From: Parcubacteria group bacterium GW2011_GWE2_39_37
GTDB lineage: Bacteria; Patescibacteriota; Patescibacteriia; Patescibacteriales; GWE2-39-37
DNA: 37,114 bases
Assembly (NCBI GenBank): GCA_000995135.1
Contig: LBWY01000005.1
Span: forward strand, 1-37,114
Direction: 5' to 3'
The notes beneath the pieces were generated by a model. It ran no database searches, had not been told where the DNA came from, and worked only from the letters and a program-made list of their open reading frames with translations. Positions within the stretch are counted from its first letter, which is position 1, and the number at the start of each line of letters is the position of its first letter. Shown piece by piece: positions 10,408-37,113 of this stretch. The position numbers and the translations under genes are program-made.

Positions 10408-11013
10408 TTATAGTTTTATTTTAACATCCCCTTCCCTAATAATTTTTATCTCCAACTCAGTCAGATCAACTATTGTCGAGCCTTTTGATTTTTTTAATTT
10501 GCCTGCGTCTAAGATTAAATCTGGCTGGTGTTTTTGATTGGTAAAATATTTTATTATCTCTTCAACCGTATGACTAGCGGGCAGCCCGGACAAGTTTGCA
10601 GAGGTTGAAATGATCGGCTTGCCTAATTTTTTTACCAGTGTCTGGGCTATGAGATTAGGAGAAATCCTGGTGCCACCGGTTTTGCCTTCCAGAACTTTTT
10701 GCTTTTCTTTTCGAACTGGCATTATTATGGAAAGTGGACCAGGCCAATGTTCTTTGATTAATTTTTTTGCAGCTGAATTAATCTCTAAATATTCTTGTGC
10801 CATCTTGACGCTGGAAACTAAAAAAAGCAAAGCCTTATCTCGCGGTTTGCTTTTGATCTTGTAAATCTTGTTTACTGCCCTGCTATTTGTGGCATCACAG
10901 CCAAGCCCATAAAAAGTTTCAGTGGGGTAGACGATTACTTTTCCTTTCTTTAGGTTATTGATGACTTCTTCAATGATTTTATCATTTGCTGCCTGTATTT
11001 TTATTATTTTCAT
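10408..11013 (-). CDS. tsaC: L-threonylcarbamoyladenylate synthase (Sua5/YciO/YrdC/YwlC)
   Basis: GKVIVYPTETFYGLGCDA, KPIISTSANLSG. Confidence 0.93.
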   Translation of the reverse strand: MKIIKIQAANDKIIEEVINNLKKGKVIVYPTETFYGLGCDATNSRAVNKIYKIKSKPRDKALLFLVSSVKMAQEYLEINSAAKKLIKEHWPGPLSIIMPVRKEKQKVLEGKTGGTRISPNLIAQTLVKKLGKPIISTSANLSGLPASHTVEEIIKYFTNQKHQPDLILDAGKLKKSKGSTIVDLTELEIKIIREGDVKIKL

Positions 11014-11060
11014 ATTTTCAACCCTTACCCCAGTGTCTCCCTTTAAAAAGAAAACTGAAA

Positions 11061-11591
11061 CTAAGCTTTTATCATACTACCGAGCATTTTGATTTTTTTA
11101 AGCAGCTCAGGCAAAAATGGTTTTAAAATTTCAACAAACTTCAATAGATATGGGACGACCTTGGAATTTAAAGATAACTTCCCGAGTAATGTACCGACAA
11201 TCGGAAATCCCATAAAGATATAGAAAACAAAACCTAGCACAAAGCCGCCTAGCACTAGACCAAAAACTGCGCCAGCCAATCGATTGATGGTTTTTAGAAA
11301 AGGAATGATCGCCAAAAAATCGAATGCCTTATCAAGCATCAGAAAAGCGAATTTTACCAGACTACTGACCAAGATGAAGATTACCAGAAAAGTGATCAGC
11401 TTGCCTGCTGAATCATAACCGAAAAATAAATTCTTAAACCAGCCGGCAACCGTAACGTAATACATGCCAGCCACCCAGATTCCGATCAGCATTCCAAGCA
11501 AAGCTCCTATAGTCCGGATCAAGCCGAAAAACAATCCATAAGAAACGAAACCAGCGAGGATAATTATTAATCCGATGTCAAAAATTACCAT
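11061..11591 (-). CDS. CvpA family protein
   Basis: IFDIGLIIILAGFVSYGLFFGLIRTIGALLGMLIG; multi-TM. Confidence 0.8.
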   Translation of the reverse strand: MVIFDIGLIIILAGFVSYGLFFGLIRTIGALLGMLIGIWVAGMYYVTVAGWFKNLFFGYDSAGKLITFLVIFILVSSLVKFAFLMLDKAFDFLAIIPFLKTINRLAGAVFGLVLGGFVLGFVFYIFMGFPIVGTLLGKLSLNSKVVPYLLKFVEILKPFLPELLKKIKMLGSMIKA

Positions 11592-11609
11592 TTTGTTTAT
11601 TTTATATAA

Positions 11610-13031
11610 TTAAATTCTTGGGAATAATGATTCGCTTTTTGAAATTTGTGTCTGACTGAATTGTTTGATTATTTTCTCTGCTACCATTGGCATGAACGGT
11701 AGAAGCAGATAACTTATATTTAAAATATTCTGCGCAATCGGAGCAAGAACTTTTTTGATTTCTTCTTTTTCCTCCAGCTTCCATGGCTTATGTTCACTTA
11801 ACCATTCATCGCTTTCCGCAATTTTTCTCCAGATAATTTTCAATGCTTCATCTATATTGATCGCATTCATTTTTTCCAGAACCGTATCATATAATTCCTT
11901 GTCGCTATTTATTTTTAATTCTAATTCAATACTATTCTTTTCAAGCAGATTGGAAACACGTGCCACTAGATTGCCGAGGCCGTTGGCCAAGTCTGCATTA
12001 TATTTTTCATCCAAGTATTTCCAAGTGATGTCGCCGTCATTGCCAAAAGTCGTAGCGCTCATCAATAGATAACGAGTTCCATCGACACCATATTTTTTTA
12101 CCAAATCTTCCGGTGCAATGACATTGCCAAGTGACTTGCTCATTTTCTGTCCTTCTGAAAGAAAAAAACCATGAGTGAACAATTGCTTTTGAACAGGTAA
12201 ACCAAGTGAAAGAAGCATGGCCGGCCAAATAGTCGCATGGACACGCAAAATATCTTTACCGATCAACTGAACATCCGCCGGCCAAAATTCAGGCAATTCT
12301 CCTTCTTCTCCTTTCCACCCCAAACCAGTCAGATAATTCAAAAAGGCATCAGCCCAAACATAAATCGTATGGTCTTTATCCCAAGGCACAGGGATGCCCC
12401 ATTTAACTTTTTCCCGTGAAAAAGCGATATCTTTCAAGCCTTGTTGATTGTAAAAACTCAGCACTTCGTTTTTCTTTTCTACTGGATGAATCATCAATTC
12501 ATCATCCTGAATTTTTTTAAGTAATTCGTCCTGGTACTTTGAAAGCTTAAACATATAAGCTTCCTCGCTCATCCATTGCGGCACAGTCTTGTGATCGGAA
12601 CACTTGCCTTCTACCAAATCTTTTTCATTTTTAAATTGCTCACAGCCTTGGCAATATAAGCCTTCGTATTTAGCCTTGTAAATATCGCCTTTGGCGTACA
12701 TTACCTCCATCGCCCTTTGCACAGATCTTTTATGATCAGTCTCTGTAGTACGGATAAAGCGATCATTGGAAATATTTAATTCTTTCCAGGCTATTTGAAA
12801 ACTGTTTGCAACTTCATCCACAAATTTTTGCGGTTCCACGCCTGCTTCCCCTGCCTTCTCCGCAATCTTGGCGCCGTGCTCATCCGTACCGGTCAAAAAG
12901 AAAGTTTCTTCCCCGATCATCCGATGGAAGCGCGCCAAAACATCCGCTGCCACAGTAGTATAAGTATGTCCTAAATGCGGCTGCGCATTAACATAGTATA
13001 TTGGAGTAGTAATATAAAATTTATTTTTCAT
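11610..13031 (-). CDS. metG: methionyl-tRNA synthetase
   Basis: YITTPIYYVNAQPHLGHTYTT; KMSKSLGN. Confidence 0.97.
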   Translation of the reverse strand: MKNKFYITTPIYYVNAQPHLGHTYTTVAADVLARFHRMIGEETFFLTGTDEHGAKIAEKAGEAGVEPQKFVDEVANSFQIAWKELNISNDRFIRTTETDHKRSVQRAMEVMYAKGDIYKAKYEGLYCQGCEQFKNEKDLVEGKCSDHKTVPQWMSEEAYMFKLSKYQDELLKKIQDDELMIHPVEKKNEVLSFYNQQGLKDIAFSREKVKWGIPVPWDKDHTIYVWADAFLNYLTGLGWKGEEGELPEFWPADVQLIGKDILRVHATIWPAMLLSLGLPVQKQLFTHGFFLSEGQKMSKSLGNVIAPEDLVKKYGVDGTRYLLMSATTFGNDGDITWKYLDEKYNADLANGLGNLVARVSNLLEKNSIELELKINSDKELYDTVLEKMNAINIDEALKIIWRKIAESDEWLSEHKPWKLEEKEEIKKVLAPIAQNILNISYLLLPFMPMVAEKIIKQFSQTQISKSESLFPRI

Positions 13032-30735: not shown

Positions 30736-31683
30736 ATGAAAAAAATCATTTACTTCGTACTTTTAATTTCATTGCTTATAGGCTCCATCGGTTTAAATTT
30801 TGCCTTGGCCGGCTCAAGCAATGGTTTAAAAGTGAACGAGCAGAAAGGCAAGATAAAATTTATTCAACAACAACGCCAACAAGATAACGAAATAAAAATA
30901 GAAATGAAAGCGCAAAATAATTCGAATCAAAATGGAACTGCCACTATTACTCAAGAAGGAAATCAAGTGAGAGTAAAAATCGAACTGGACCAGGCTCCAA
31001 ACACTTCACAGCCGGCACATATCCATACCGGCTCATGTCCTGATCCTGGAGATATAGTTTATTCCTTGAATGACGTAGTCAACGGCAGATCCGAGACTGT
31101 AGTAAACGTTTCCTTGGAGGATCTGATGAAACAACTGCCATTAGCAGTAAACGTGCACAAATCCGCCAATGAAGAGAATGTATATGTTTCTTGCGGGGAC
31201 ATAAAAAATAAAACTAACCAAATAAATAAAAGCAGATGTTATGACCAGGACGAGAGCATGAAAGTTTGGAAACAAACAATCGGAACATCAACTTTGGTAA
31301 TGATAAAATCTCAAATAGAGATCGACACAGCAACCACCTCTCCGGACGAGATTGCCAACCTGATCTTAACAGAGCTTAAAGCAAACAGAGAAACGATCGG
31401 TGAAAGCTTGAATCAACAGGAAAATGAAAAATATTTTGATGAGAATGAGATGATGATGGATCCAGGCTGTGCCCAAGATTTCTTCAAAATAATCATCAAG
31501 ACCATGGATGACACCACGGTTGCTAAAGTAATGATGAGATTCATGGTAAACAGCACAGATAACCAAACCGTAGAAAATGAAATATATAATAGAATTGACA
31601 GCCTGACAATCGAACAGATCAAGGCTGCTATGCAAAACCAACCAATGAATCCGCAACAAAATCCAAGACCTAACCAACAATAA
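30736..31683 (+). CDS. secreted protein with CHRD-like domain
   Basis: Signal peptide; VRVKIELDQAPNTSQPAHIHTGSCPDPGDIVYSLNDVVNG...AVNVHKS. Confidence 0.75.
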   Translation: MKKIIYFVLLISLLIGSIGLNFALAGSSNGLKVNEQKGKIKFIQQQRQQDNEIKIEMKAQNNSNQNGTATITQEGNQVRVKIELDQAPNTSQPAHIHTGSCPDPGDIVYSLNDVVNGRSETVVNVSLEDLMKQLPLAVNVHKSANEENVYVSCGDIKNKTNQINKSRCYDQDESMKVWKQTIGTSTLVMIKSQIEIDTATTSPDEIANLILTELKANRETIGESLNQQENEKYFDENEMMMDPGCAQDFFKIIIKTMDDTTVAKVMMRFMVNSTDNQTVENEIYNRIDSLTIEQIKAAMQNQPMNPQQNPRPNQQ

Positions 31684-31700
31684 CAAAATAAAAATAAAAT

Positions 31701-31730
31701 AAAAACTGCCGATAAACTTCGGCAGTTTTT
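31701..31730 (+). terminator. rho-independent terminator
   Basis: AAAAACTGCCGATAAACTTCGGCAGTTTTT. Confidence 0.8.
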
Positions 31731-31773
31731 ATTTATAGCTAAGAGAAATTACCTGTTCAGCTTATGCTATTAT

Positions 31774-31792
31774 TGGCGGAGAGGGGGAGATT
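31774..31792 (-). other. tRNA-Ser 3'-end-like fragment, candidate att core of an integrated element
   Basis: Minus strand AATCTCCCCCTCTCCGCCA resembles T-stem/acceptor/discriminator/CCA of tRNA-Ser; no complete tRNA present here. Confidence 0.5.
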
Positions 31793-31929
31793 CTCACTGA
31801 GGCGGAAGCCCCTCGACAATCAGTATGTAATATCTTAGAATTCTAAAGATTTAATTTTTAAAAAATTATTTACCTCGCTAATTGACCTTGCTCAAAAGGA
31901 AGTTCTTCTCCTCCCCTCACCGAGCAAAT

Positions 31930-31959
31930 AAAAATAGAGGCTTAAAGCCTCTATTTTTA
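31930..31959. terminator. bidirectional hairpin terminator
   Basis: AAAAATAGAGGCTTAAAGCCTCTATTTTTA. Confidence 0.75.
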
Positions 31960-32170
31960 ATTTGCGGGCTAGGTGAGTTAAGTACCCCACCACTCCAATG
32001 TCCATGGGCTTATTCACGGATCTTGGGCTGGGGTAAAATTAGGTACTAGAGTCGGGGTCTAAAAAGGTGAAATGAGACAAATGAGACACAATTACGGAGT
32101 TTTGAAACTGTCTCAGTTTATACAATAATTTTATGTTTTTATCTAACCTAAGTCAATCTATTAACTGCTT

Positions 32171-32914
32171 CTACCTCTTTAAAGAATAGAGACATGTCTC
32201 ACCAGTATCTTGGTCATAAACTAAATTTTCAGACCTCCTTCGCTCAGTTATAGGTGAATAATCATCAAGCGAGAAAGCTTCGAGCGATCTTAAGCCTCGA
32301 CCTGCACATTCAAGGGTTCTGTATAAATAAACAATAAATGAACCAGAGTAGCGATAACGGCGAATACAGCGGTCGATATTTTCCTCAATCCTGTCGTTAT
32401 ACCCACGCCAATGCTTAAGATTTCGACTTTCTATCCATTGTTCGACAAGTTGTTTTATAAAATCTATGGCCTTTTTCTTTGCAAGTAAGTTGCCCTTTTG
32501 AGCCGTTCTGACAAGCCTGATACTAATTTGATCGCAAATCTTTTTTTCCTCTTTACTTGTCTGCACTAAAAAGGTGTAAAGATTCGCTTGATATTTATCC
32601 AAAATAGCATCAACTTCGACAATGTCTTCGTACTGTTTAATTATCTTTTTAACTTTAAATCCCCTTAACCACAACTTCTGATGCTGATTATCCAACCGGC
32701 TAACAATCTTATCCCAATCAGTTTCACCCAATTCTGTCTTAACATTTTCAGTAATGAAATTGTAAGATTTACGAACACTGTTCTTAACCCAAGCATGGTT
32801 GAAAGTTGAGGGATTCTTCTTGGACAAAGATCTGTTTAAATTTTTTATGGCCTGATCAAAATTCACATCGCTATATTTTCTTGTCCTTGACAAGCCTCCA
32901 GTAGTGATATCCAA
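32171..32914 (-). CDS. unknown protein with sigma70 region-2-like segment, last gene of the TIR-caspase operon
   Basis: RLVRTAQKGNLLAKKKAIDFIKQLVEQWIE...GYNDRIEENIDRCIRRYRYSGSFIVYLYRTL resembles sigma region 1.2/2 patterns; ORF overlaps the caspase gene by 44 nt. Confidence 0.6.
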   Translation of the reverse strand: MDITTGGLSRTRKYSDVNFDQAIKNLNRSLSKKNPSTFNHAWVKNSVRKSYNFITENVKTELGETDWDKIVSRLDNQHQKLWLRGFKVKKIIKQYEDIVEVDAILDKYQANLYTFLVQTSKEEKKICDQISIRLVRTAQKGNLLAKKKAIDFIKQLVEQWIESRNLKHWRGYNDRIEENIDRCIRRYRYSGSFIVYLYRTLECAGRGLRSLEAFSLDDYSPITERRRSENLVYDQDTGETCLYSLKR

Positions 32915-33839
32915 GTGCCGTTAGTTTGCATGACTTAGAATTCATCGCCGCATAGTACATGTGCTGTTCATCAACCGGAACAACAAGACCGACACTTTGA
33001 AGTTTTTGTAAATGTTTAAATATCGCAACATTTTCTTGCTGAGCAAATGGTGCAATAACTTTATGTTCAATCTTTTCAGTATTTGTATCTTCGAATGATG
33101 GATTTAGAGGAAAATGTTGCTCAGCTGAAGTGAAATATTCAGTTAATTTTCTTAAAACTTCTAATGGAACTTGCGGTACTACAGCCCTTAGCGGCGTAAA
33201 TCTAGTTATGTTTGTTTTGAAAATTGGCCGCTGATCCCACGGACCAAGTGCTTGATCGATATATGCATAAACACTACCCGGCGTTATGTAACCCCTTAAA
33301 TCTGAGGCTCCACCATGCAAGGCATCAAGTAATAAATTAGTAAAAATTCCATGACCATTTACCTCCAGTGAAGTCTCGGTGCTTTTGCTTGATGTCAAAA
33401 TTGAAACTCCCTCGCCAATGTGGGCACTCCCGCCTGTTACAAATTTAGGAGATCCAAAAGCACCAGAATAGCAGCAATCCAATATAACTACTTTATTTTT
33501 TGCCTTCGAGCTGTTTACAATGGCAAGAACTTCATCCATCGAAACGCCTTCGTCGTTTTGTTTGGCGTCTGGAGTAACAATATAACCACTTAAATCATTA
33601 ATGAAGCCGTGACCAGAAAAATACAATAACGCCGTATCACTATTACCACTAAACAAATCAATAATTAACCCTTTTAGCTCAGATTTTGTAGCAACGTCGG
33701 TTACAAGCCTAACATCAAAGTTCGGGGAGCCATCACCATTTGTTTCAATTATACCACCAAACGCTGAGGCATCATTTACACAACCATGAAGTGGTGATGA
33801 TGGATAGTTATCGATGCCAACAACTAATGCTTTTTTCAT
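32871..33839 (-). CDS. caspase-like (peptidase C14) protease with C-terminal additional domain
   Basis: KALVVGIDNYPSSPLHGCVNDASAF; YFSGHG (His77) and LDCCYSGAFG (Cys123) catalytic dyad. Confidence 0.92.
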   Translation of the reverse strand: MKKALVVGIDNYPSSPLHGCVNDASAFGGIIETNGDGSPNFDVRLVTDVATKSELKGLIIDLFSGNSDTALLYFSGHGFINDLSGYIVTPDAKQNDEGVSMDEVLAIVNSSKAKNKVVILDCCYSGAFGSPKFVTGGSAHIGEGVSILTSSKSTETSLEVNGHGIFTNLLLDALHGGASDLRGYITPGSVYAYIDQALGPWDQRPIFKTNITRFTPLRAVVPQVPLEVLRKLTEYFTSAEQHFPLNPSFEDTNTEKIEHKVIAPFAQQENVAIFKHLQKLQSVGLVVPVDEQHMYYAAMNSKSCKLTALGYHYWRLVKDKKI

Positions 33840-33840
33840 A

Positions 33841-34251
33841 TTATTTATTTTTACCCTCCTTCATCACCTGTTTAATTGCCGAAGCGATTTTCTCCCAATC
33901 CCAGCTAATCGTCCTATTTCTTGGTAATCCGCTAGGCAACGTGCTTAACCCACCGGCTCCATCAACATAAACACCAAAAACTGGGACATCACACTTATTT
34001 GCAAAAGAGATTTCTTTTACTACACCAGTAGCTGAAGCTATGTTCTTGCCAACCAACACAATTACAAGATTGCATTTGTTAATTTTTTCTTCAATTAACT
34101 TCTCCCATTGACTCTGGGGCAAAGATGATTTTGAAGACCAATCATCAACGTTAAATGGTGTCTTAGAGTTTTTCGCCTGGCCAGCAAACATAATCTTTTC
34201 ACTCGAATTGTGGTCAAAGTCAAAGCTGATAAATGCTCTTGGGTTGTTCAT
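33841..34251 (-). CDS. TIR-like domain protein (MTH538/DUF1863, ThsB-like)
   Basis: RAFISFDFDHNSSEKIMFAGQAKNSKTPFNVDDWSSKS...NLVIVLVGKNIASATGVVKEISFANKCDVPVFGVYVDG. Confidence 0.88.
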   Translation of the reverse strand: MNNPRAFISFDFDHNSSEKIMFAGQAKNSKTPFNVDDWSSKSSLPQSQWEKLIEEKINKCNLVIVLVGKNIASATGVVKEISFANKCDVPVFGVYVDGAGGLSTLPSGLPRNRTISWDWEKIASAIKQVMKEGKNK

Positions 34252-34267
34252 TTTTTTAAATTAATAA

Positions 34268-34900
34268 TTAGCTAGTTTTAATAACCTGAATCACCTCGCC
34301 AGCAACATAGTAGCAACCCACGTCATCCTTGTGTAAAATAATCGGCGGATATTCTCGACTTGATTCAGACATTAGAATTACCGAATGGCGAGCCTTATCC
34401 TCCTTAAATTTTTTAATATTTGCTACGCCATCGATAACCGATAAAACGTAACTACCGTCAGATGGTTGATGAACGGATGAGTCAACGATAACATAGTCTC
34501 CGTCCTCGATATTTTCTTTTTTTATATTAGCCCGGTTCATTGAATTACCAACAGCCCTAATCGCAAATAAATTATCCTTTTTCTTGGTTAAAATTTTATC
34601 AGATATACGTAAATACCCCTCAATATAATTTTCAGCATAGCTTCTTGCCTCGCCACAATTGGCCGCACCCATGATCGGTATAGCCATAAGACTGCTTTTT
34701 ATCCTGTTGTTCAGGCCAACAACTTTGTTTTCTTCCTTTATAATTTTTAACAGCCCCTTAGCTTCAAGCTGATTTAAATGATGTTTTATCTTCTGAGGTA
34801 CATCACCCTCGCCGATTGCCTGGCCGATTTCGCGAAGGGTCATATTGCTGATGTTTTTATTATCGGATAGATTCAAAATTGCTCGTTGAATTTTATGCAT
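34268..34900 (-). CDS. LexA/S24-like repressor (wHTH plus self-cleaving peptidase domain)
   Basis: wHTH TLREIGQAIGEGDVPQKIKHHLNQLEAKGLL; IPIMGAANCGEA (Cys82-Gly83 site), VGNSM (Ser120), DGVANIKKF (Lys163). Confidence 0.9.
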   Translation of the reverse strand: MHKIQRAILNLSDNKNISNMTLREIGQAIGEGDVPQKIKHHLNQLEAKGLLKIIKEENKVVGLNNRIKSSLMAIPIMGAANCGEARSYAENYIEGYLRISDKILTKKKDNLFAIRAVGNSMNRANIKKENIEDGDYVIVDSSVHQPSDGSYVLSVIDGVANIKKFKEDKARHSVILMSESSREYPPIILHKDDVGCYYVAGEVIQVIKTS

Positions 34901-34938
34901 AAGTTAGCTAAATAAATACATTTATATTTTACCCCTAA

Positions 34939-34967
34939 ATAATACAGGCGGGTCGCCATCCTGTCAA
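34939..34967 (-). promoter_or_regulatory. promoter of the repressor-TIR-caspase operon
   Basis: Minus strand TTGACA-N17-TATTAT. Confidence 0.75.
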
Positions 34968-34998
34968 TATTTACTTAAATGTTTTAAAACTTGACAGG
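34960..34998. promoter_or_regulatory. candidate operator: CCTGTCAA N23 TTGACAGG inverted repeat with central palindrome GTTTTAAAAC
   Basis: 8-bp perfect arms 34960-34967 and 34991-34998; 10-bp palindrome 34981-34990. Confidence 0.6.
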
Positions 34999-35019
34999 TT
35001 TTCTGGACTGATCTATTAT
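34991..35019 (+). promoter_or_regulatory. divergent promoter of the DUF2188 gene
   Basis: TTGACA-N17-TATTAT. Confidence 0.75.
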
Positions 35020-35050
35020 TAAAATTAAATAACCTTTTAAACTCAACGCT

Positions 35051-35275
35051 ATGGGCAAAAATATACATGTTACACACCGGAAATCTGGTGACTGGGCAGT
35101 TATCGGTGAGGGTGACCAAAGAGCTTCCTCCCTTTCAAACACGCAAAAAGAAGCTATTGAACTCGCCAGGCAGTTGGCGATTAATAATAAATCAGAGCTG
35201 GTTATCCACAGAGTGGATAACAAGATAAGGGACAAGGACAGCTTTGGCAATGATTCGTTCCCGCCAAAAGGATAA
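35051..35275 (+). CDS. DUF2188 domain protein
   Basis: WAVIGEGDQRASSLSNTQKEAIELARQLAINNKSELVIHRVDNKIRDKDSFGNDSFPPKG. Confidence 0.9.
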   Translation: MGKNIHVTHRKSGDWAVIGEGDQRASSLSNTQKEAIELARQLAINNKSELVIHRVDNKIRDKDSFGNDSFPPKG

Positions 35276-35286
35276 ATTTAACGCTC

Positions 35287-35622
35287 ATGGAAAATTCTAA
35301 CCAAAATCAAAATGAAGAATACCAAGAGGTGCTAATAACACGCATCGAGTTGCATTCCAATCATGCCATCAATCCCCAGCCTATCAATAGGCAGGTTGCC
35401 AAAAGTCTAAAAAACCTTAAACCTGGCATGGCTCACGGCGGAAGAATCACCAAAATCGAAGGAAACCGATTCGAAATGGTATTGCCACTCAAGGACGTCC
35501 AGGTTCTGCCCAACGGAAAGAAGATTAGATATGTTTACCCTGCTGGCGGCGTGCCTATATATCTTGGAAAGGATGCTATAGAAAAAATAGATGCTTTAAG
35601 GCGAAAAGGCCTAATCAAATAA
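35287..35622 (+). CDS. hypothetical protein
   Basis: 111-aa ORF 11 nt after the DUF2188 gene, same strand. Confidence 0.7.
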   Translation: MENSNQNQNEEYQEVLITRIELHSNHAINPQPINRQVAKSLKNLKPGMAHGGRITKIEGNRFEMVLPLKDVQVLPNGKKIRYVYPAGGVPIYLGKDAIEKIDALRRKGLIK

Positions 35623-35727
35623 CGCTCTTTATTTACAATCAAATATCACAGTGGTGTATTGCGAATTTCAGTAACCTGATAGTAGATATAATTTCTTAAT
35701 TATATTAGAGAGGCTTTGCCTCGGTAG

Positions 35728-35793
35728 TGCCCACTTCAAAAAGACTGTATACAAATGTTTTTATTTTTGTGTCTATTCTTTTTGAAGTGGGCA
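35728..35793. repeat. 17-bp perfect inverted repeat upstream of the methyltransferase, followed by T-run
   Basis: TGCCCACTTCAAAAAGA (35728-35744) / TCTTTTTGAAGTGGGCA (35777-35793). Confidence 0.9.
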
Positions 35794-35835
35794 TTTTTAT
35801 TTACTAACATCCAGTCCAAAATCTGGATAAAAATT

Positions 35836-37113
35836 ATGCCCAAAGAAAAACTAGAATGGCACACCGAGAAACGCTCGGTCGCCGAACTTATTCCCAACGA
35901 TAAAAACCCACGAGTAATGAGTCCAAAACAAATTGAAGACTTAAAACGAAGTCTACAAAAATTCAACTTGGTCGAAATTCCCGTCATTGACACAGACAAT
36001 AACGTGTTAGCAGGACATCAAAGGCTGATGGTGTTTAAGTTGTTAGGCCGAGAAAATGAAACAATAGAAGTAAGGGTGCCTAGCCGTAAACTAAGCAAAA
36101 AAGAATGCGAGCAATACTTGCTGACCAGCAACAGGGTTCATGGCGACTGGGACTGGGCCAAACTAGCTGAAAATTTTGACATTGACCTATTAATTAATAG
36201 CGGCTTCGACGATACTGACTTGTCTCACCTCTTTAATGACCTAACGGTTGAAGATGATGAATTCGACATTGAAAAAGAACTAGAGAAAATTAAGAATCCC
36301 AAAACTAAACTAGGCGAGATTTACCAGCTTGGCGACCATACGATAATTTGTGCCGATAGTACCGACCCAAAGACTGTCAAAAGGCTCTTGGGTAGCTGTA
36401 AAGTCGACATGATCTACCAAGACCCACCATATAACATTGGCCTTTCCTACAACAAGGGCGTTGGTGGTAAAAAGAATTACGGCGGCACAGTAAACGATTC
36501 CAAAAGTGATAGTGATTTTAAAGAGTTTTTAAAGTCTGCTCTGGCTAATGGACTATCAGCTTGCAAATCAAATGCTCACATTTTTACTTACTGCGACCAA
36601 AAATATATTTGGCTTCTGCAAACCCTCTACCAAGAACTAAACATCACTAATAAGCGAGTAGCACTCTGGATAAAGAACAATAGCGTGCCTACACCGCAAG
36701 TGGCATTTAATAAACAATACGAACCATGTGTTTATGGAACGGTTGGCAGCCCCTATCTTTCAGATAAGGTTCTTAATCTTTCAGAGATTATTAACAAGGA
36801 CATCGGTACTGGCAATCGAACAATCGAGGATATCCACGACATTCTAGATATTTGGCTGGTCAAACGTATCAATGGCACCGAATATCAACACCCCACCGAA
36901 AAGCCGCCCGCTCTTCACGAAAAACCCTTACGACGCTGTACTAAGCCGGGCGATTTAATTTTAGATCTATTCGCCGGTTCAGGTAGCTTAATGATTGCTT
37001 GTGAACAATTAAAACGGTCTGCGTACATGGTCGAACGTGAACCAATTTTTGTTGATTTAATAATTTGCCGATATGAAAAACTTACAGGCTGCAAAGCCAA
37101 AAAAATCAATTAA
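35836..37113 (+). CDS. ParB-N-like domain fused to beta-class DNA (N6-adenine/N4-cytosine) methyltransferase
   Basis: ELIPNDKNPRVMSPKQIEDLKRSL...VLAGHQRL (ParB-N); DMIYQDPPYNIG (motif IV) then LDLFAGSGS (motif I). Confidence 0.93.
   Translation: MPKEKLEWHTEKRSVAELIPNDKNPRVMSPKQIEDLKRSLQKFNLVEIPVIDTDNNVLAGHQRLMVFKLLGRENETIEVRVPSRKLSKKECEQYLLTSNRVHGDWDWAKLAENFDIDLLINSGFDDTDLSHLFNDLTVEDDEFDIEKELEKIKNPKTKLGEIYQLGDHTIICADSTDPKTVKRLLGSCKVDMIYQDPPYNIGLSYNKGVGGKKNYGGTVNDSKSDSDFKEFLKSALANGLSACKSNAHIFTYCDQKYIWLLQTLYQELNITNKRVALWIKNNSVPTPQVAFNKQYEPCVYGTVGSPYLSDKVLNLSEIINKDIGTGNRTIEDIHDILDIWLVKRINGTEYQHPTEKPPALHEKPLRRCTKPGDLILDLFAGSGSLMIACEQLKRSAYMVEREPIFVDLIICRYEKLTGCKAKKIN

Follow-up and report, generated by a model that had tools for sequence, protein, structure and literature searches.

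A TIR–caspase pair of type IV Thoeris anatomy as likely cargo of a terminase- and recombinase-bearing element in Patescibacteria

Passages of PMC6509639 describe CRISPR-Cas as rarely carried by Patescibacteria, so that the phage resistance of these bacteria is an open question. The window analyzed here, by which we mean the whole stretch of DNA under study, comprises 37,114 nucleotides of contig LBWY01000005.1 from Parcubacteria group bacterium GW2011_GWE2_39_37. The initial annotation took the genome for CPR-like, and it is indeed small and Patescibacteria-like; its host is a tiny bacterium, probably symbiotic. Four minus-strand genes of the window were read in that annotation as a LexA-like repressor, a TIR protein, a caspase and a sigma-like protein, together forming a regulated, four-component antiphage system of the Thoeris type. 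The locus raises the question of which of these genes make up the defence system and what the others are doing beside them. Its features are given below; loci and genomes used for comparison carry handles beginning with L and G, respectively.

34268..34900, minus strand: LexA/CI-like S24 repressor, first gene of the operon (Peptidase_S24, E 6.7e-17; Ser120, Lys163 and Cys82 invariant)
33841..34251, minus strand: ThsB-type TIR, predicted NAD-derived signal synthase (ThsB_TIR PF08937, E 6.8e-8; PADLOC ThsB, 1.8e-9; E80 invariant)
32871..33839, minus strand: caspase-like protease effector with a C-terminal helical/strand domain (Peptidase_C14, E 1.7e-16; PADLOC caspase, 3e-19; H77/C123; AlphaFold2 fold)
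32171..32866, minus strand: ORF4, element-associated, GTG start (homologues in L034, L234, G282 and G203)
34939..34967, minus strand: predicted promoter of the S24-TIR-caspase-ORF4 operon, TTGACA-17-TATTAT (11/12 consensus positions)
34991..35019, plus strand: predicted divergent promoter toward the DUF2188, small protein and methyltransferase genes, TTGACA-17-TATTAT (11/12 consensus positions)
34960..34998, no strand: inverted repeat, candidate operator (14-nt arms, 86%, 11 nt spacing; both −35 boxes inside)
35051..35275, plus strand: DUF2188 protein, PADLOC PDC-S16 (Pfam/PADLOC-type profile matches)
35287..35622, plus strand: small conserved protein, backbone gene (26% identity to the gene at the same position in G151)
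35755..37113, plus strand: ParB-like/N6-N4 DNA methyltransferase, backbone gene (PF01555, 7e-29; phrog_498, 4e-90)

The tight packing of the four genes was borne out: all are open reading frames (34268-34900, 33841-34251, 32871-33839 and 32171-32914), with gaps of 16 nt between S24 and TIR and 1 nt between TIR and caspase. The 44-nt overlap described between caspase and ORF4 depends on a TTG start of ORF4 (32171-32914). The ORF4 homologues in L034, G282 and L234 begin at the residue encoded by the GTG at 32866, leaving a gap of 4 nt to the caspase gene, and judged by these homologues the overlap is a start-codon artefact.

The central pair fared as proposed. The candidate catalytic E80 of the TIR is invariant in 10/10 aligned homologues and again in 9/9 of a second alignment, and the His77/Cys123 dyad of the caspase is invariant in 10 aligned homologues and again in 22. 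An AlphaFold2 model of the caspase (pLDDT 87) predicts a caspase fold with confidence, contrary to the lack of caspase geometry that was to count against the proposal; it matches MALT1 and caspases in the PDB (E 5e-13) and has an extra C-terminal domain beyond the caspase fold. A profile-based PDB search likewise returned metacaspases and MALT1. A PDB search with the single caspase sequence gave chance matches to antibodies. The best NCBIfam match is NF047832, caspase_w_EACC1, at 109 bits, below the 140-bit cut-off. Compared with the best-matching "caspase family" plasmid proteins (105 records), the caspase is 45–59% identical over its full length, and a TIR-size gene lies just upstream of the caspase gene in 8/8 plasmid loci inspected.

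We then asked how regularly the two genes occur together. A profile scan with one genome per species gave 499 caspase relatives, the best 80 of which (53–80% identity) were kept; these come from Bacteroidota, Bacillota, Pseudomonadota, methanogen-related archaea and others. A TIR gene, detected with hmmsearch, lies immediately next to the caspase gene in 83 of 90 surveyed loci from many phyla (67 upstream by script, 1 after start correction, and 15 downstream read from the list); the two thus occur together elsewhere, and much more often than chance would give. Because of this adjacency, we assign the core of the four genes, by its anatomy, to type IV Thoeris, which has already been described. 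In type IV Thoeris, according to the passages of PMC12847820 that cite Rousset et al. 2025, the TIR makes N7-cADPR, which activates the caspase-like protease, and cell proteins are degraded. Several surveyed loci have two TIR genes; at L057, L063, L067, L070, L074, L078 and others, the caspase is followed by one or two TIR genes, an inverted order with double sensors.

The two proteins do not share a single history. The window TIR is 71–79% identical to the TIRs of Proteus (L014) and L027. Between G151 and the window the TIRs are 31% and the caspases 70% identical, and L046 (692-2046), compared with L013, L034 and L049, combines a window-type TIR with a G151-clade caspase. On these comparisons the histories of TIR and caspase are partly separate, sensor and effector having apparently been exchanged separately.

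The LexA-like repressor was correctly recognized as the first gene of the operon. Ser120, Lys163 and Cys82 of the Cys82-Gly83 cleavage site are invariant in 8 homologues; the protein keeps the whole self-cleavage site and is predicted to be autocleavable. Its N-terminus matches LexA_DNA_bind with 18.4 bits, under the 23.7 cut-off. A second LexA-like S24 gene, 45% identical, lies beside dinB in the same genome; the window S24 is therefore an additional copy, which rules out that it is the host's own LexA.

The S24 type accompanies the TIR-caspase pair at six of the 90 loci (the window, G151, L034, L049, L044 and L046) and is absent from the other 84. It points in the same direction as the pair in the first four and is divergent in L044 and L046. 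The genomes of L044, L046 and L049 belong to the Patescibacteria group (Kerfeldbacteria among them), and L034 is a MAG whose element is 78–83% identical to that of G151. In the caspase tree the six S24-linked loci fall in three places, which makes the linkage recurrent: starred branches force at least two origins, and the 5–95% range over 200 bootstrap trees is three. The tree thus points to a linkage that arose at least twice, and probably three times.

What lies on the other side of the repressor gave a first indication of its setting. Divergently from S24, the window carries the DUF2188 gene, the small protein gene and the methyltransferase gene (start probably the ATG near 35836), and the contig ends 4 nt past the methyltransferase stop. 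The methyltransferase is 50% identical to the one that adjoins TerS, TerL and a recombinase in G151, where the order is S24-TIR-caspase and, divergently, small protein-methyltransferase-TerS-TerL-serine recombinase. In L034, TerL-TerS-methyltransferase is divergent from S24-TIR-caspase-ORF4, behind which come genes for a SIR2-like protein, a serine recombinase and a G2P-type replication protein (10772-11680). This last gene adjoins the recombinase and suggests a replicating stage of the element. L049 shows the start of TerL, then TerS and two methyltransferases, and has its DUF2188 gene between S24 and TIR. The small backbone protein is also present in L228, L229, L248 and L252. TerS, TerL and recombinase of the window copy are out of view because the contig stops just after the methyltransferase; no TerL relative was found in the window's own genome, which is 83% complete.

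The same backbone recurs well beyond these loci. Of 380 genomes from the phylum, 37 have TerL of the element type, and each of 20 genome loci inspected has the methyltransferase and TerL with adjoining TerS, with a recombinase in view in all but two. The methyltransferase-TerS-TerL-recombinase module is common in IMG/VR contigs and recurs over many genera. When 144 flanking proteins were assigned to PHROG families, the 25 most frequent of these included none for capsid, portal or tail proteins. The flanks contain type I and type IIG restriction systems, OLD-like nucleases, a PDC-S06 ATPase, and GmrSD and AbiU2 domains. The window's own genome (G000) holds a second similar element on contig C6 (L026:3093-16070), with two methyltransferases, TerS, a KAP NTPase, a serine recombinase 61% identical to that of G151, HTH and ImmA-like genes, and type I restriction. 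Some elements (L174:8889-12082, L238, L240 and L253) have two tandem TerL genes, unlike ordinary phages. The IMG/VR contig 3300014208_001447 carries a more distant TIR-caspase pair (L119, 42%) together with the L253 backbone genes (TerL, TerL, serine recombinase), and an S24-like gene lies behind its serine recombinase.

The host side of the locus was compared with relatives. In 5 of 7 of these, rmuC lies beside uvrA (uvrA named from sequence). In the window, a CHRD-like gene and then the element come after rmuC, whereas uvrA opens a different contig at base 2. This arrangement is consistent with an insertion within which the assembly broke off. The CHRD-like gene (30736-31683), between rmuC and the element, is absent from this position in relatives and may be part of the insertion.

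S24 is also found in such elements with other genes behind it. Of the 40 backbone loci long enough to show a neighbouring S24 gene, nine have one near the methyltransferase, each time divergent, and five of these (L180, L232, L188, L252 and L229) have no TIR-caspase pair in view. In L180 it stands at the front of a TIR operon of another kind, ThsB-TIR ... HEPN; in L232 it heads a pair of AAA and OLD-like nuclease genes; in L188 and L252 it heads genes with no assigned function, and in L229 the S24-headed region is cut off. The row seen in L180 and in L226:989-6118, namely S24, ThsB-TIR, one further gene, HEPN and nuclease-like genes, is in itself a candidate for a different TIR-based defence operon.

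ORF4 did not live up to its description as sigma-like. It has no Pfam match, and none to a sigma family at E values up to 10; an hhalign comparison with 20 sigma factors of relatives gave a probability of 0.1%, a comparison that is insensitive because three ORF4 homologues were aligned at that point. Its model is mostly helical and of low confidence (pLDDT 68), with no usable PDB fold match (best E 0.84). We therefore rejected the sigma assignment on the Pfam and hhalign results. In L034 an ORF4 homologue follows the caspase directly, in the same S24-TIR-caspase-ORF4 order as in the window. In the viral contig L234 it lies directly behind the serine recombinase and in G282 at 2.4 kb from a recombinase remnant, both without TIR-caspase; in G203 it is interrupted by a stop. 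ORF4 is missing after the caspase in G151 and L049, and none was found with the other surveyed pairs. Single-sequence scans of plasmids, phages and viral sequences returned no ORF4, and viral contigs scanned with a profile gave none either, although L234 came up later through the TerL search. Because S24 and ORF4 both occur with the backbone without TIR-caspase, and ORF4 is missing in G151 and L049, both look like element genes, not Thoeris components.

We next considered how the two divergent operons might be controlled. A search for promoter-like sites over 31600-35800 gave as its two best a divergent pair, 34967-34939 on the minus and 34991-35019 on the plus strand; they share the top score among the 12 sites found, and shuffled sequence yields 12.4 sites irrespective of score. 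Both −35 boxes lie within the inverted repeat 34960-34998, a suggested candidate operator for S24, and only suggestive as such because the facing −35 boxes themselves give part of the symmetry. The idea of a single operator motif for all S24 loci was rejected because their upstream regions did not yield a shared one. If phage repressor regions are taken as the model, the most economical reading of the region would be that S24 represses both operons and that both are released together after self-cleavage.

We consider it probable that the type IV Thoeris abortive-infection pair is carried as cargo by an integrated element resembling a phage or satellite, in the slot next to the repressor. We conclude from the loci compared that the slot is swappable among defence genes and appears to be filled here by type IV Thoeris. 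We infer signal chemistry, protease activation, repressor binding, self-cleavage, induction and mobility along the following lines. Without stress, S24 would bind between the divergent promoters and hold down expression of both its own operon (S24-TIR-caspase-ORF4) and the one with the methyltransferase and terminase genes. An infecting phage would be sensed by the TIR, which would convert NAD+ into a cyclic ADP-ribose signal (N7-cADPR in characterised type IV systems); this signal would switch on the caspase, and the active caspase would degrade cell proteins, so that the phage is stopped. Upon DNA damage or phage entry, S24 would cleave itself, and Thoeris expression would rise as the element is induced. 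Induction by DNA damage or phage and the status as a satellite are likewise what we infer. More tentatively, and with less confidence than the cargo reading itself, the elements might represent an undescribed, capsid-less, satellite-like family widespread in Patescibacteria (ParB-methyltransferase, TerS, TerL and serine recombinase), some members of which would couple DNA-damage induction, via a LexA-like switch, to a swappable lethal defence operon, the slot having captured type IV Thoeris two or three times.

The low frequency of S24 beside the methyltransferase (the nine of 40 above) speaks against the element reading, as do the end of the contig ahead of any terminase or recombinase gene and the lack of a TerL relative in the 83%-complete genome, and at L044 and L046 S24 adjoins TIR-caspase with no backbone visible; S24 may therefore be a dedicated Thoeris regulator. 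It would then mark a Patescibacterial subtype of type IV Thoeris, travelling with TIR-caspase, next to terminase genes by chance, and timing expression to DNA damage as CapK/CapS does. The six S24-linked loci are patescibacterial or of patescibacterial type, occur in two orientations and require at least two origins of the linkage, and regulated type IV Thoeris exists (12 CapK/CapS cases; PMC13373217). We nonetheless regard a dedicated regulator as rather unlikely, given that this S24 type is found in front of other defence genes and, where no TIR-caspase is in view, invariably diverges from the methyltransferase. Moreover, the S24 proteins are not grouped by Thoeris linkage, because that of the window is nearer to the host LexA-like protein (45%) than to the S24 of G151 (39%).

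Decay offers a different account of the terminase genes, as leftovers of a prophage in an ordinary, non-moving defence island. The flanks without recurrent capsid, portal or tail genes would agree with this, as would the interrupted ORF4 of G203 and the recombinase remnant of G282, but decay would not preserve an intact recurring backbone, and the methyltransferase, TerS, TerL and recombinase recur together intact over many genera and in IMG/VR; a remnant is, in our estimate, improbable. The four-component system of the initial annotation, in which S24 and ORF4 would both be required, draws on the identical gene order in L034. Its TIR-caspase core stands; the variant as a whole was rejected as highly improbable on the distribution of the two additional genes, most TIR-caspase pairs having neither, G151 having S24-TIR-caspase without ORF4, and L234 and G282 having ORF4 without the pair.

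Under the cargo reading, a Patescibacterium would have a caspase-executed suicide system on a recurrent element of phage-like type, the slot of which is occupied by other defence genes at other loci. The methyltransferase-TerS-TerL-recombinase backbone is a search handle for further defence systems in Patescibacteria, and the locus would serve to test if DNA damage can be linked to a lethal immune operon through a self-cleaving repressor. Our literature search found no work linking Thoeris to Patescibacteria elements; one paper with both words concerns marine biofilms.

Type IV Thoeris itself is already known (Rousset et al. 2025, as presented in passages of PMC12847820 and PMC13373217), and so are its regulated form and defence slots in prophages and satellites, one of them between cI and integrase (PMC9122126). 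The window shares with type IV Thoeris a ThsB-like TIR directly upstream of the caspase in one operon with catalytic residues kept, a likeness of anatomy rather than of compared sequence with the characterised pair, and adds S24 first, ORF4 last and a patescibacterial mobile-element setting. Like the DNA-damage-regulated CapK/CapS operons, type IV Thoeris included (PMC13373217), it has a regulator upstream of a lethal immune operon, but CapK/CapS is a kinase/repressor pair, whereas the window regulator is a predicted self-cleaving S24 repressor. The antiviral hotspots of prophages and P4-like satellites (PMC9122126) are similar in being small slots with changing defence genes in phage-like elements; here the setting is Patescibacteria, with a serine recombinase, a ParB-methyltransferase and the element's own TerS and TerL. 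Phage-inducible chromosomal islands and satellites likewise combine integrase, repressor, terminase gene(s) and defence cargo with no structural genes seen, which here is drawn from the gene content of relatives; in contrast to the islands, the present candidate elements carry TerL as well as TerS. New are the operon form that begins with S24, the fact that it recurs, and the terminase/serine-recombinase element of Patescibacteria that carries it.
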